From Novakomyces olei (taxonomy: Eukaryota; Ascomycota; Novakomycetes; Novakomycetales; Novakomycetaceae), in NCBI GenBank assembly GCA_016906335.1, contig JADEYG010000002.1, positions 755,001-819,000 on the forward strand: a stretch of DNA of 64,000 nt, read 5' to 3'. The notes under the pieces were generated by a model. The model made no database searches, was not told the DNA's origin, and was given only the letters and a program-made list of their open reading frames with translations. Both the position numbers and the translations under genes were made by a program. Shown in pieces: positions 2,444 to 57,237 of this stretch; position 1 is the first letter of the stretch; each line of letters begins with the position of its first letter.

Positions 2444-2491
2444 TAGGGTTAGTTAGGGTTATTGGTCGTCAGGGTTACCCTAACTAACCCT
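2444..2491. promoter_or_regulatory. Inverted pair of telobox elements upstream of NDE1
   Basis: TAGGGTTAGTTAGGGTTA (2444-2461) faces ACCCTAACTAACCCT (2477-2491) on the opposite strand, with a small AGGGTTACCCT palindrome at 2471-2481. Each arm holds two CCCTAA/TTAGGG half-sites spaced 10 bp. It lies about 365 bp upstream of the NDE1 ATG. The next gene to the right ends at 2809 and points the same way, so NDE1 is the only obvious target. Nothing else was recognised in the 2081-2808 spacer. A role as a Myb-type factor binding site is inference. Confidence 0.55.
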
Positions 2492-2808
2492 GACTTTATG
2501 CCTTTTATTTACGGCTGCAAGTGAGGCGCGTACTGTTGCCAACGGCCACCGCGTTGTCGTCTGAGCGGAGCAGTATACTCGTATCATGTTAAAATTCAGA
2601 GTTCCAATATATTAAATATTCTTATCGAGAGCAGAGCGGCCCGCCACGGACGTGCTTCTCCACGCGTGTGAAATTCCAACGCTACGCTTGTATTCAACAT
2701 AAACTATATATGAAAGGGCGTTAAGGTTATGCAACCAATTTCCTTGCAGGTCAATGCACAGTCAAACACTGTCATCAAAATCTAGAAAGCTGCTTTATAA
2801 TATAAAAA

Positions 2809-4010
2809 TTATTTAACCTGGCTGGATTCCTGACTGAAATTTTCATAAAGTCGCCAAAGCGCATGCTGCTCGCCAATTATTGTCGTAAGTGTGCGTTGCT
2901 GAAACCCATCTTCTCGTCCAGACATATAACGGAGCTGTTCAATCACATCGGCGAGCATGTGAGCTCGTCCAATCTCCATACCCGAACCAGTAGAGTGATT
3001 GACCCGGGCTATATGGACGTGAAAATGGTAGTACGAAGGCTGATAGTGAATATACATTTTGATCTCCGTCCCGTCGAGGTTGTATTTTTCATAAACTGCC
3101 CGCTGCAGCGACTTTTCCAAACGTTCAAGAAACCCGATGTGCCGTGGAGCCAGGTCTCTTAAAGAACTTACATCATGGCGATTGACAATTGCCATTAGAT
3201 ATAGAGTATCAAGATTTTTACGATCCCATTTCCTGCAAACAAAGTTAGCGGTGACCCGTCCAGCAATGCTCCACATACATGTCTGGTATAAGAACAAAGC
3301 CATCGACTGGATCTGCATTTTCGCATAGAATGCTCTCTGTTTCGGCTTTGTGCTCTAATATGTTGTATACCCTTGTATTAGAAAATGGCTTCGTAGGCTG
3401 GTCTGCGAATCATATTCACAGAATACTGTCGCACTTATACGTACCATTGCAATCGTTCACCCTTCATGCTTGTAATGTAAGGAAGGGTAACAGACTTGTA
3501 CATCTCTGGTGTCTCTTTAACCACACGGTACTTTTGCGCCTGATACTTTCGAATATGCTATTGACATTAGCGTGAATCACAAATATTGCACTTACTGTCT
3601 CAGTGGCAGGCCAAATTATCGTGGTTTTGATTCCATGACTTGACAAAGTGTCATTTGAAAGGTATCGCAGGTACACAGAATTATGTTCTAATAGCTCGAG
3701 ATCACGACTTGTGTTTGCTAAAATAGACGGAGCACTCGACTCATCAAAAGCCGACTTTTCGAGCAGCGCTAGTGCAGATTGGCCGCGTATTTGCCCAAGC
3801 AGGGTAAGCGATTTGCTCGATGTGCCTAATTAATTCCTGCTTTAGTCTATTTCGTAGTTTTGCTCGGGGCATACTCTGGTCTAAGACCCGTTCAAACTCA
3901 AATTCCTGGCGAAGTTCAGTCAGGCCTTCAATTGCTCTCTTTTTAAGATTAGTGAACTTCTAATTGTGGAGCCAATTTTATACCTCTTGTTGTGAGCCCT
4001 GTACGGTCAT
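2809..4010 (-). CDS. DCS1: Scavenger mRNA decapping enzyme (DcpS)
   Basis: HIT-family pyrophosphatase that hydrolyses the m7GpppN cap left after 3'-5' mRNA decay. Six exons join to 316 codons: 4010-3984, 3938-3875, 3825-3596, 3557-3445, 3371-3279 and 3232-2809. Introns are 38-73 nt, several with CTAAT or GCTAAC near the acceptor. The N-terminal swapped-dimer region carries a GLTELRQEFEFERVL-like block. The linker has DPVDGFVLIPDMKWD, followed by the LYLMAIVNRHDVSSLRDL block. The histidine triad reads HYQPSYYHFHVHI (about residues 239-251), the exact DcpS pattern. Length is close to human DcpS. The first exon is tiny (MTVQGSQQE), so the start is the least certain part. It is divergently paired with the TPR gene at 4261, sharing a 250-bp AT-rich promoter with TAA repeats at about 4158-4190. 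Confidence 0.9.
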
Positions 4011-4260
4011 TCTCCAACTAAATGCCCAATCAATTGATTGTTTTTGGCGTACTAATCGAGCTGTGCTTGTAATTGTGTTGCGATAAGGCAGTCGAATTTT
4101 GTGAAATGATAATAAGCTTGTTTCCCCTATATTATCGAGCAGGGTAAATATAAATATAATAATAATAATGATAATAATAATAATAAATAAATTATTATTT
4201 CGGCGCCAGCAAAGATCAATATTGATCATATTCAAAGGTTCGTCAACTGAATCGTGATCA

Positions 4261-5624
4261 ATGCGGCGGAGCACAGTCGCACTGCTGCAGGCAGCACAGC
4301 GAGCTTTACGGGCTTCATTGTATATTTACTTGGGAGTAGGAGTGGCTGTGCCGGCTTATGTGGGTGGATATTTTGCGTACTATGAATACAACCATCCTAC
4401 CCCGAAACAGTGGCCGATTCTGAAGCGGCTTGAACTGCACGGTGCCTGGGCAATGCACGAGAATGGCCAGTCGCAAAATTCGGTGAAAGCGCTTGAAGCT
4501 TTATTAAGCGATAAGGCACTGGAAGGCGATAGTGAAGGTGAGCATAGTCAATATACATCACTCATTTGCACACTAGCTAACTCTGACCTTTAGCGGTTAA
4601 ACAGGAACTGGCCAGCATTCATTTAGGTCTCGCTGCTGACTACAGAAATCTCGGCCAACGCGATGGCCAATGCCGACATTTAAATGAGGTAGAGAAAATT
4701 ATGGAGACCTCAAAACGAGAAGTAGCGCGAGAAGTTTATGCTGCATTTTTACTCGAGCGCGGTCGTTTGTATCTGAGCGATGGTAACTACAAAGAGGCCA
4801 ATCAGCATTTTCGCCATTCTGCCTACATCTTAAATAAGCCAGCACAATCAAATCCCACACATGTTGAGCCATTCTGGAGTGGTAAACGGCGGCTGGAAGA
4901 AAATAACGAAAACAAATACAACCAAGAACCTATCTTAAGGTTCGCTCTTTCACCTACAACAAAATTAAGCCCCAATGGATTTGAAGCGGTCCGCGAACTC
5001 GCAAGATCTTCTTTATTAGAACTGCAAGCTCAAAATGAAACCTGGCTAGGTTGGGCTCAAAATTTGAATTATTTCTCAAGACACGCAAGAACCGAGTCTT
5101 ATAAGGAACTCTGTCTTGTTTATGACAGTTTGCTTAATGCCTCGACGATGTGTGTCACACAGGAAGTTCCACCTTTTGAGAAAAGCGCGATCGAGCTTGA
5201 GTACGCTCGCTGCCTTTTGCTTACAAAGGATATAGATCACGCCTTGCAACAGGCAGATTCGGCATACAAGTCTGCACAAGACGAAGCTGGCTGGCTACAA
5301 AGGCAGTTGTTAGCAACAGAACAAGTACAAAAGTCAATTAAACATAAATGTGGGGCCGCTGCAGCGTCGGCAGTGATTTTATCTGGCAAAATTCAGCGTC
5401 GGTATAAAAATTTGGGCGTAGAAGAATCCAGATTGCTTTTTGTCGAAGCCATTCGGTTAGCACGGCTCGCAAATAGCACAGATTTGGAGAAGGAAGCAGA
5501 GGAGGCAATTGACGAGCTTCCTATTCGAGGAAACAAGAAGGACAGATATTCAAAGGACTCTACGATACCCAAAGCTTTTTCGCTTTATTCTCAAGATTTA
5601 TTGGCTCTTAGTGATTTGAAATGA
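4261..5624 (+). CDS. TPR-type mitochondrial membrane protein, possibly Mgr3-like
   Basis: Two exons, 4261-4537 and 4594-5624 (56-nt intron with GCTAAC), give 435 aa. The N-terminus is basic and followed by one hydrophobic segment (about residues 18-40, YIYLGVGVAVPAYVGGYFAYY), then HPTPKQW. The rest is soluble and alpha-helical with degenerate TPR-like units, for example IHLGLAADYRNLGQ and ERGRLYLSDGNYKEANQHF. A signal anchor followed by TPRs fits Mgr3, the adaptor of the i-AAA protease Yme1, but the sequence match is weak and other mitochondrial TPR proteins are possible. It shares its promoter divergently with DCS1. Confidence 0.55.
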
Positions 5625-55686: not shown

Positions 55687-55704
55687 AACCCTAACTAACC
55701 CTAT
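55687..55704. promoter_or_regulatory. Telobox upstream of HRI1
   Basis: AACCCTAACTAACCCTAT, 10-bp spacing, 315 bp before the HRI1 ATG in the 503-bp CID-HRI1 spacer. Nothing else was recognised there. Confidence 0.5.
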
Positions 55705-56018
55705 TTAATTATTTAAACTTATATATGTTAGGTTGACATTGACAGATGCTTCTTCACAATCATCAATAATCTAAACATAATGTACATTAACCATAGAGGC
55801 AAATGACCAGATCAGACTTCCCCCCATCGAATATCATAGATTATTTTGCGGCGGCTAATGAACGCATTACATACGGTTTGCGGGACGACTATGATAGAGT
55901 GCAACCGGCTTGAAAGCTGGCCGGCAGCTCTTCCGAATACGGAATAGTAAAACAAATATATAAAGAATAAATGATATCATGAACAATACGCGGACACAAC
56001 CAAAGTATTAGTTGAGTA

Positions 56019-56693
56019 ATGGCATCCATACAAACCCGCGAGAGCATCAAATGGGGCGATGGGGCCCCTTCCGAGCCAACAGACACAATTGTGTTGTCGG
56101 GCAAAACGTGGTACTTGGATCTTCGAATCAATGTTAAAGACGACACAATTGATTGGGGAATGGCGGGGGAGATAATTCGCTATGAGGGCGGAAAGCGCAG
56201 GTATGCCATTTAATGCTTATTTCAGTTGGTCACTTGCTACGTCTTCTTACGTCTTAGATTTACACATGAGGTCGACTCGCGAGGCGATACTGATATCCTT
56301 GACGAAGGTCTTTTCACAAGTATAGGTGAAAACCTGGACAAAGAAAACGGAAATGCCGTTAACCCCGCGACCGGAAAGAAGGAAGCGCTGGAAGAAATTT
56401 GGAAGCATGTGAATCTGGGCGACTCGCCCAAGCTTGCAATTTTGCGGGCCGAAGACGAGCGAGGAATTTATTTTATTGGCCGTGTCAATGACGACTGCGT
56501 CTCTATGGAAGCCACTAATGGTGAAGGGTTTTCCTACCGACGTGCTTTCTATGACGGACAAAACTGGCTAGTAAAGTACGAAGGTGGCATTAATACCACA
56601 CCTCTGTTGCATGAGTGGCCTGTGGGCTATAAGCTGGGTGATTCTTTCTATTGGAAGAATCGCGAATGGAAAATCGTCGAGCTGGCCTTGTAG
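56019..56693 (+). CDS. HRI1: Hri1-like protein
   Basis: Fungal-specific soluble protein of unclear function (the S. cerevisiae member interacts with Hrr25 and Sec72). Two exons (56019-56200, 56258-56693; 57-nt intron) give 205 aa. The two lipocalin-like halves are visible. First: DTIVLSGKTWYLDLRINVKD, IDWGMAGEI, and, across the junction, FTHEVDSRGDTDILDEG. Then comes GNAVNPATGKKEALEEIWK. The second half has AILRAEDERGIYFIGRVNDD, FSYRRAFYDGQNW and GDSFYWKNREWKIVEL. The order matches the HRI1 family over the full length. Confidence 0.85.
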
Positions 56694-57173
56694 TTGAGCT
56701 ATTAATTCCCAATTTTGATATCAATGTTTGTGAACTGCTGCTGTAGGGACGTCAGCTTATGTTTGATTTGATTTGCAAAGCTCATAGTCAAAGCTTAATC
56801 TTATTATACTTTGTTTTAGAAATTTATGTGGTGTATAATTTTCATTTGGGGAGTGATAAATGCGTCATCTGCATGAAAAGCCTTTTTCAAGGAAAGAATG
56901 TATATCGGAATACTGTAGGTCCAAATTGGTCGCTACAAAACATTAGTTTAGCAGCTATACATGAGTCTGAAGACAGAATACAATGCAGCCTCCCGGCTTG
57001 CACAGAGATTAGAATTTCACAATTTGATTTGAATTTTCTAAACAATATTTTTGGTTTTGGTTCTTTCACCTTTTTCTATGCACAGCAGAAGATTATATAA
57101 AAATGGGGTTTTAGCCCATTATCTATGACACGAGCAGGATCTCGCCACTCAAAAGCTCTATCAATGTGGAATT

Positions 57174-57237
57174 TAACCCTAACCATCGTCTTGTTGACAA
57201 AGGACAAATAAAGCTTTAACCCTAAACAAACCTAATA
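57174..57237. promoter_or_regulatory. Two telobox-like elements upstream of the ArAE gene
   Basis: TTAACCCTAACC (near 57173-57184) and TTAACCCTAAACAAACCTAA (57216-57235, 10-bp spacing, degenerate second half) lie 140-200 bp before the ATG at 57375. The 681-bp spacer after HRI1 also contains a 113-codon frame (56759-57100) that I do not accept as a gene. Confidence 0.45.

Follow-up and report, generated by a model that had tools for sequence, protein, structure and literature searches.

A 64,000-nucleotide stretch of Novakomyces olei DNA (C2:755001-819000, in a 14.34-Mb genome of 15 contigs labelled C1, C2 and so on; hereafter the window) carries SPB1, PBN1/PIG-X and HRI1 together with SCC2-, PHS1-, BYE1-, PRP4- and PEP12-like genes, and between its genes lie repeated copies of a short element. 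Each copy consists of two teloboxes in tandem, TAACCCTAACTAACCCTAA, in which two AACCCTA half-sites start 10 bp apart, and both the geometry of the pair and most of its linker are those of the organism's own 10-bp telomere repeat. Judged from the sequence, the element is real, apparently constrained, intergenic and regionally clustered, and the pairs probably serve as docking sites for a telomere-type protein.

Searching the window for CCCTAAN4CCCTAA with up to two mismatches identified 13 matches where 2.96 were expected (0 of 100 shuffles reached 13), whilst the 17-mer AACCCTAACTAACCCTA, with up to three mismatches, was found 12 times where 0.06 were expected (again 0 of 100 shuffles). A first-pass annotation of this DNA had listed 11 tight copies, all of which were recovered 0-2 bases from the positions given there (Table 1). 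Its looser copies proved to be a mixture. That at 54478 is indeed of the same kind, with three mismatches in an indel-like pattern, but those at 31885, 50051 and 57175 read AACCCTAACC(C/A)T, corresponding to a 6-bp spacing, and that at 36312 is AACCCTAATCCTAA. We refer to pairs whose half-sites start 10 bp or 6 bp apart as 10-type and 6-type, respectively. Two pairs absent from the earlier list, both weaker, were found at 6408 (one mismatch) and 19062 (two mismatches). The window is atypically dense: when two right-flank classes of site were listed genome-wide (63 + 39 = 102 sites), seven of the 102 fell within it, where 0.46 would be expected from its length.

Table 1. Telobox pairs in the window (positions are those of the window) and the proposed, doubtful domains (contig coordinates)
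Feature	Position	Strand	Context
10-type pair, exact 17-mer	2444..2460	-	5' of Pyr_redox/EF-hand gene (minus strand, ORF piece 926-2221)
10-type pair, 2 edge mismatches	2476..2492	+	same spacer as 2444..2460
10-type pair, exact	15887..15903	-	upstream of SPB1 ORF 16498-18870 (+) and probable upstream exon 16177-16494 (+)
10-type pair, linker ACG	19280..19296	+	178 bp before ORF 19467-19976 (+)
10-type pair, linker GCT	22275..22291	+	upstream of PBN1/PIG-X ORF 22906-23685 (+)
10-type pair, exact	29566..29582	+	divergent spacer, SCC2-like (minus) / PHS1-like PTPLA gene (plus)
10-type pair, linker ATT	33153..33169	+	convergent (3'/3') spacer, RsmB/F-type methyltransferase / RING gene
10-type pair, exact	40001..40017	+	divergent spacer, BYE1-like (TFIIS_M+SPOC, minus) / PRP4-like kinase (plus)
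10-type pair, 1 edge mismatch	43751..43767	+	5' of DHHC gene (minus strand)
10-type pair, exact	55687..55703	+	between CID gene and HRI1, 5' of HRI1
10-type pair, 3 mismatches (2 linker, 1 core)	57218..57234	+	88 bp before ArAE-type ORF
Degenerate 10-type copy, 3 mismatches, probable indel	54478..54494	-	PEP12-like/CID divergent spacer
Weaker CCCTATGCGACCCTAA pair	6408..6423	+	
6-spaced partial pair AACCCTAACCCT, architecture unlike 10-type	31885..31896	+	
6-spaced partial pair AACCCTAACCCT	50051..50062	+	
Proposed domains (doubtful)	C2:757-944 kb; C1:1.20-1.30 Mb; towards both ends of C3		

The contig ends covered comprised both ends of C1, C2 and C3 and the start of C4, and because tandem CCCTAACTAA arrays are found at both ends of C1, C2 and C3, GGGTTAGTTA can be identified as the telomere repeat of this genome, bearing out an earlier suggestion that the 10-bp unit might have this role. 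Near the chromosome ends, an identical 27-bp sequence, CATAAATAACCCTAACCCTAAATAAAT, is seen at C1:3306, C3:170, C3:2819, C3:4636 and C3:1737833; this is probably a subtelomeric repeat.

Over the whole genome, with telomeres counted, pairs of ACCCTA separated by gaps of 0-30 number 1022, compared with 71 when the pattern is reversed. The full listing of spacings covers one strand of one contig (C1 plus) and there, once the terminal 200 bp are excluded, the 10-bp spacing is represented by 26 pairs (24 places) and the 6-bp spacing by 28 (23 places), with no more than six pairs at each of the other spacings from 7 to 36. The 10-bp spacing is thus enriched, as had been predicted, but it is not unique, 6 bp being as frequent. 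This weakens the notion of a unique helical-turn spacing, although eight of the 19 6-type C1 loci analysed (among L060-L079; L-numbers denote loci cut out for analysis) are found inside open reading frames (ORFs) of at least 120 codons, as AACCCTAACCCTA, and many 6-bp pairs are therefore probably coding hexamer repeats. Over C1, C2 and the initial 589 kb of C3, the 10-type sites and the 6-type sites (a mixed class) tend to keep to different stretches, with 47 switches between types against 61.3 expected (P = 0.005).

The linker and flanks were examined in the same portion of the genome, using the 100 places listed out of 233, with a non-G base required at both outer ends; 30 telomeric rows were dropped, leaving 70 internal copies, 65 of them independent. 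Over these 65 copies the linker bases A, C and T are present in 77%, 86% and 83%, respectively, and the complete telomeric ACT in 36, as it is in seven of the 11 window copies. The first-pass annotation had described a varying linker and a constraint on spacing that did not extend to the full 10-mer; with this degree of conservation a freely variable linker can be rejected, and the second description is not supported. The outer bases are also preferred (T before the first half-site in 66%, A after the second in 69%), but beyond them agreement with the telomere repeat drops to 20-46% per position, placing sharp edges at about TAACCCTAACTAACCCTAA. Because the flank match drops in this way, most copies do not appear to be remnants of longer arrays. 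The 10-type copies at C2:183283, C2:29389, C2:970270, C1:1270962 and C7:38732 have GCA or ACA linkers, and some of them come in short runs; they resemble a subgroup of their own, minisatellite-like in character.

A second line of evidence comes from the distribution of substitutions. In the ten window copies with no more than two mismatches there are three substitutions in the linker, three at the edges and none in the 12 core positions. Genome-wide, telomeres included, 527 matches were found at up to two mismatches and 288 with exact cores and any linker, so that approximately 240 copies are core-mutated; by calculation, even decay at the linker's rate would give 5.2 core-mutated copies for every core-intact one. 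This supports constraint on the cores, as judged within a single genome where origin and constraint are not fully separable. Even decay, flanks included, as would be anticipated of neutral remnants, is not what is seen: the edges are sharp and the core is better kept than the linker, in keeping with the earlier view that these sites are unlike decayed telomere arrays.

Position relative to genes was assessed with ORFs of 120 codons or longer standing in for genes (introns were ignored, and are thus mixed into the noncoding background) with the window plus 60 kb as background. Coding sequence is avoided, as had been proposed: 23 of 25 internal C1 loci (from among 30 loci cut out) and all 11 window copies lie outside ORFs, so that just two of 36 copies are inside, where 58.8% of background positions are. 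Both of these, L008 and L009, are members of one dispersed repeat family. Two copies on C9 also lie outside ORFs, one in a convergent spacer, as do four further C2 copies (ORFs of at least 90 codons). A preference for promoters is possible. Of the 27 copies that have a 5' side, 17 are placed 50-320 bp from a 5' ORF end, where 13.7 would be expected given the spacers that they occupy (P = 0.10), and for a range of 60-350 bp, chosen afterwards, the count is 19 of 27 against 14.4 (P = 0.03).

Matches to Pfam (E<=0.001) were obtained for 24 of the 36 window ORFs scanned and agree with the gene pairs SCC2/PHS1, BYE1/PRP4 and PEP12/CID named earlier, as well as with PBN1. The ORFs directly adjoining the BYE1/PRP4 and SCC2 sites have no Pfam match of their own, the Nipped-B_C match of the SCC2-like gene being in its last ORF, and ORF 19467-19976 (+) sits upstream of a DOT1-domain ORF at 20513-20902 (+). 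On C1, 16 of 20 ORFs beside copies have a Pfam match; these include CENP-H, a P-type ATPase, MTHFR, LTV1, a DEAD helicase, VPS28 and THG1, in addition to DSBA, an inositol kinase, L19, GH31 and CAP.

Subtracting telomeric matches (42 counted on the C1-C3 listings and the rest extrapolated) from the 288 exact-core matches gives an estimated 190-200 internal copies, and these are far from evenly spread. Amongst seven contigs of known size, density ranges from 15.4 per Mb (C2) down to 2.9 per Mb (C12), with a chi-square over all giving P = 1.5e-5. The densest 64-kb stretch contains eight of the 102 sites and the densest 200-kb stretch contains 17, whereas 2000 uniform simulations, with a size assumed for C4 and the remaining contigs pooled, gave at most seven and nine, respectively. 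In the unfiltered list, 20 copies fall within C2:757-944 kb, a cluster that includes the window, and copies are clustered also towards both ends of C3. The first-pass annotation had envisaged a general promoter factor, but with copies so few and so strongly clustered that reading is rejected. Nor is there any sign in third-position G+C content (GC3) or noncoding fraction that the hot region is foreign or introgressed: GC3 is 0.446 in the window, 0.439 in C7 and 0.490 in C9 (P = 0.41 when the window is compared with the other two) and the noncoding fraction is 0.315, 0.326 and 0.378, respectively.

What might read these sites? The telobox-type Myb homologues that had been anticipated (Tbf1/Tay1/Teb1) are encoded by the genome. 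An intron-split gene at C3:1041 kb (L042) specifies two telobox Mybs (HLKDRFRT and DIRDRFRNAF) in one chain. The protein sequence, obtained by joining exons by hand without transcript support, is 61% identical to Schizosaccharomyces osmophilus Teb1 over 57% of the query, 60% identical to a Dipodascopsis protein, its best match, and 52% to a Yarrowia one, and on this basis it is classed as a Tay1/Teb1-type double-Myb homologue. The single TRFH match in the genome (L053, C3:1165173-1165862, PF08558, E 1.8e-60) is followed in the same frame by a C-terminal Myb with the telobox LKDKARNLK, although this Myb is weak by Pfam (23.6 bits alone and 24.5 with neighbours, against a cut-off of 24.4, and above E 0.001). 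Two homologues were found, one of which is named TTAGGG repeat binding factor. With a TRFH domain and a C-terminal telobox Myb, L053 is by its domain content a Tbf1-like TRFH-Myb protein, and appears Tbf1-like rather than clearly Taz1-like. TRFH dimers of TRF proteins are flexible, and by analogy we infer that, of the two, a double-Myb protein would be better suited than such a dimer to a fixed spacing with a conserved linker.

Each part of this arrangement is known in kind from other systems; what is new is the geometry common to telomere and internal sites, and the clustering. For the literature on the repeat and its rotations, and on Taphrinomycotina or interstitial repeats, no report of this element appears in those titles and opening lines of abstracts that were listed, which does not prove that there is none. 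The plant telo-boxes, AAACCCTAA, are likewise telomere-like promoter motifs, but are usually single sites of the TTTAGGG type. In the Yarrowia clade, the telomere repeat is given as TTNNNNAGGG, 10 bp long and bound by YlTay1 (PMC6746865). The repeat here has the same 10-bp form, with a 4-base insert in TTAGGG (TTAGTTAGGG), and a Tay1 homologue is likewise present. The differences are that in N. olei the repeat pair is also dispersed internally and that N. olei lies outside the clade, as judged from the 120 best Spb1 matches listed, amongst which Spb1 is closest to Schizosaccharomyces (50-52% identity).

The fission yeast Schizosaccharomyces pombe offers two further comparisons. Teb1 is described there as a transcription factor acting on tandem TTAGGG, and the HisBox of histone promoters as AGGGTTAGGGTT, with half-sites 6 bp apart, the form that Teb1 needs (PMC4839565). 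Two tandem TTAGGG-type half-sites in intergenic DNA, and a Teb1/Tay1 homologue, are likewise found in N. olei. Compared with the HisBox as described in that source, however, the tight window copies have half-sites 10 bp apart, with a conserved ACT linker, rather than 6 bp, a spacing that is shared instead by the 6-type pairs; no histone gene is found among the Pfam-matched neighbour ORFs. At the Taz1-dependent late-origin sites of S. pombe the likeness lies in internal telomere repeats and an encoded Rif1 gene, and the difference in the absence here of an AT-rich context at +/-300 bp. Tbf1 has been counted among the general regulatory factors and credited with an insulator role (PMC6410037). 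Tbf1 sites of budding yeasts, found in promoters and subtelomeric STARs, share the TTAGGG core, and a Tbf1-like TRFH-Myb protein is encoded here, but the N. olei sites differ in being fixed tandem 10-bp pairs with strong regional clustering, in having no Rfam match, and hence no known snoRNA, across the window and 20 C1 loci and in having one L19-type neighbour but no ribosomal-protein class.

The most likely use of the fixed-geometry pair, to which we would give about an even chance, is that it acts locally on nearby genes via Tay1/Teb1 or Tbf1. A telomere-type Myb protein would bind each intergenic pair, most likely the Tay1/Teb1 homologue with its two Mybs, the Tbf1-like TRFH protein acting as a dimer being the less likely candidate, and binding would open chromatin or regulate the adjoining, functionally unrelated genes. 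Only a few percent of genes, concentrated in a small number of chromosome regions, would then be served by the pairs, rather than the pairs making up a genome-wide promoter module. Several observations weigh against such local action. An ordinary promoter site would not be expected to cluster so strongly by region, and 27 of the 34 copies outside ORFs have at least one 5' side where 76.5% of noncoding background positions do so, which is not a significant excess; in a second count, omitting L008, L009, L017, L018 and one of the two adjoining copies at 2.45 kb, the figures are 26 of 31 against 83%. The Pfam-matched neighbours in the window and on C1 have no pathway or function in common, and Rfam yields nothing at gathering score, snoRNA or other, for the window or for 20 of the 25 C1 loci, so that no known snoRNA target is seen there. 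Both window copies with three mismatches carry core changes, and some few of the listed copies continue into a third repeat. Finally, the flanks resemble the telomere repeat more closely in copies whose linker is not ACT than in ACT copies (5.5 against 4.4 of 12, P = 0.011), and some copies may therefore be remnants of longer repeats.

Much of this would fit a neutral origin, in which telomerase or repair adds approximately two repeats at chromosome breaks and the insertions, having no function, survive where they are harmless. We regard this as unlikely on balance, if deserving of serious attention. Intergenic position would follow from harmlessness and the regional hotspots would be hotspots of breakage, improbable as we hold this too to be; the lack of a clear 5' bias or of a shared gene class, the clustering and the more telomere-like flanks of non-ACT copies are all in its favour. 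So too are the prevalence of the exact telomere repeat, the commonest form (36 of 65), the presence of both orientations (145 forward and 143 reverse exact-core matches, telomeres included) and the finding that a dispersed repeat beginning at the motif is common to three of the 25 C1 loci. Arrays of variable length would, however, leave telomere-like flanks, which the low per-position match speaks against, as does a core kept better than the linker; in the other C1 copies, moreover, homology between flanks at the motif does not extend past approximately 45 bp. A quite different function is conceivable but rather improbable, namely that a telomere protein at internal pairs recruits Rif1-PP1, in the manner of Taz1 and Rif1. 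Rif1-PP1 would then delay origins or, no more probably, tether domains of 100-200 kb close to telomeres. That each site has two telomere repeats, that both orientations occur, that sites cluster in domains and that a gene for a Rif1 N-terminal domain (C9:307673-308656) is present all suit this reading, and loss of Rif1 at one site is described as altering origins across 50-100 kb (PMC9909590). An AT-rich origin context can be rejected, AT content at +/-300 bp being 59.3% at 32 sites against 59.3%; the excess is local and slight (65.7 against 60.8% at +/-50 bp and 62.2 against 60.1% at +/-150 bp). The sole TRFH protein found, moreover, is not clearly of the Taz1 type.

Extending this idea, it is conceivable, though we consider it distinctly doubtful, that the pairs mark domains of 100-200 kb in which a telomere protein, via Rif1 or similar, sets replication timing or nuclear position, and that they have tracked change in the telomere repeat, so that telomerase RNA and approximately 200 sites co-evolved. 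If one protein does read both the telomere and some 200 internal pairs, with one 10-bp geometry for both, a change in the telomere repeat must carry the internal sites along, and in N. olei this coupling could be put to a direct test; the clustering would suggest that telomere proteins have a domain-level role beyond S. pombe too.

It is very improbable that the copies belong to a transposon or to a family of subtelomeric repeats. L008, L009 and L017 do share approximately 84-86% identity over approximately 450 bp from the motif onward, and L016 shares 65-127 bp with this family, away from its own motif. The other C1 loci, however, share only short stretches at the motif, and the match between the window and the family is no longer than 27 bp; comparison of the flanks thus refutes a transposon origin for the whole set, such an origin holding for a few copies only. 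L008, L009 and L017 lie at C1:343 kb, 350 kb and 1071 kb, respectively, and other pieces of L017 are common to the subtelomeric locus L061.

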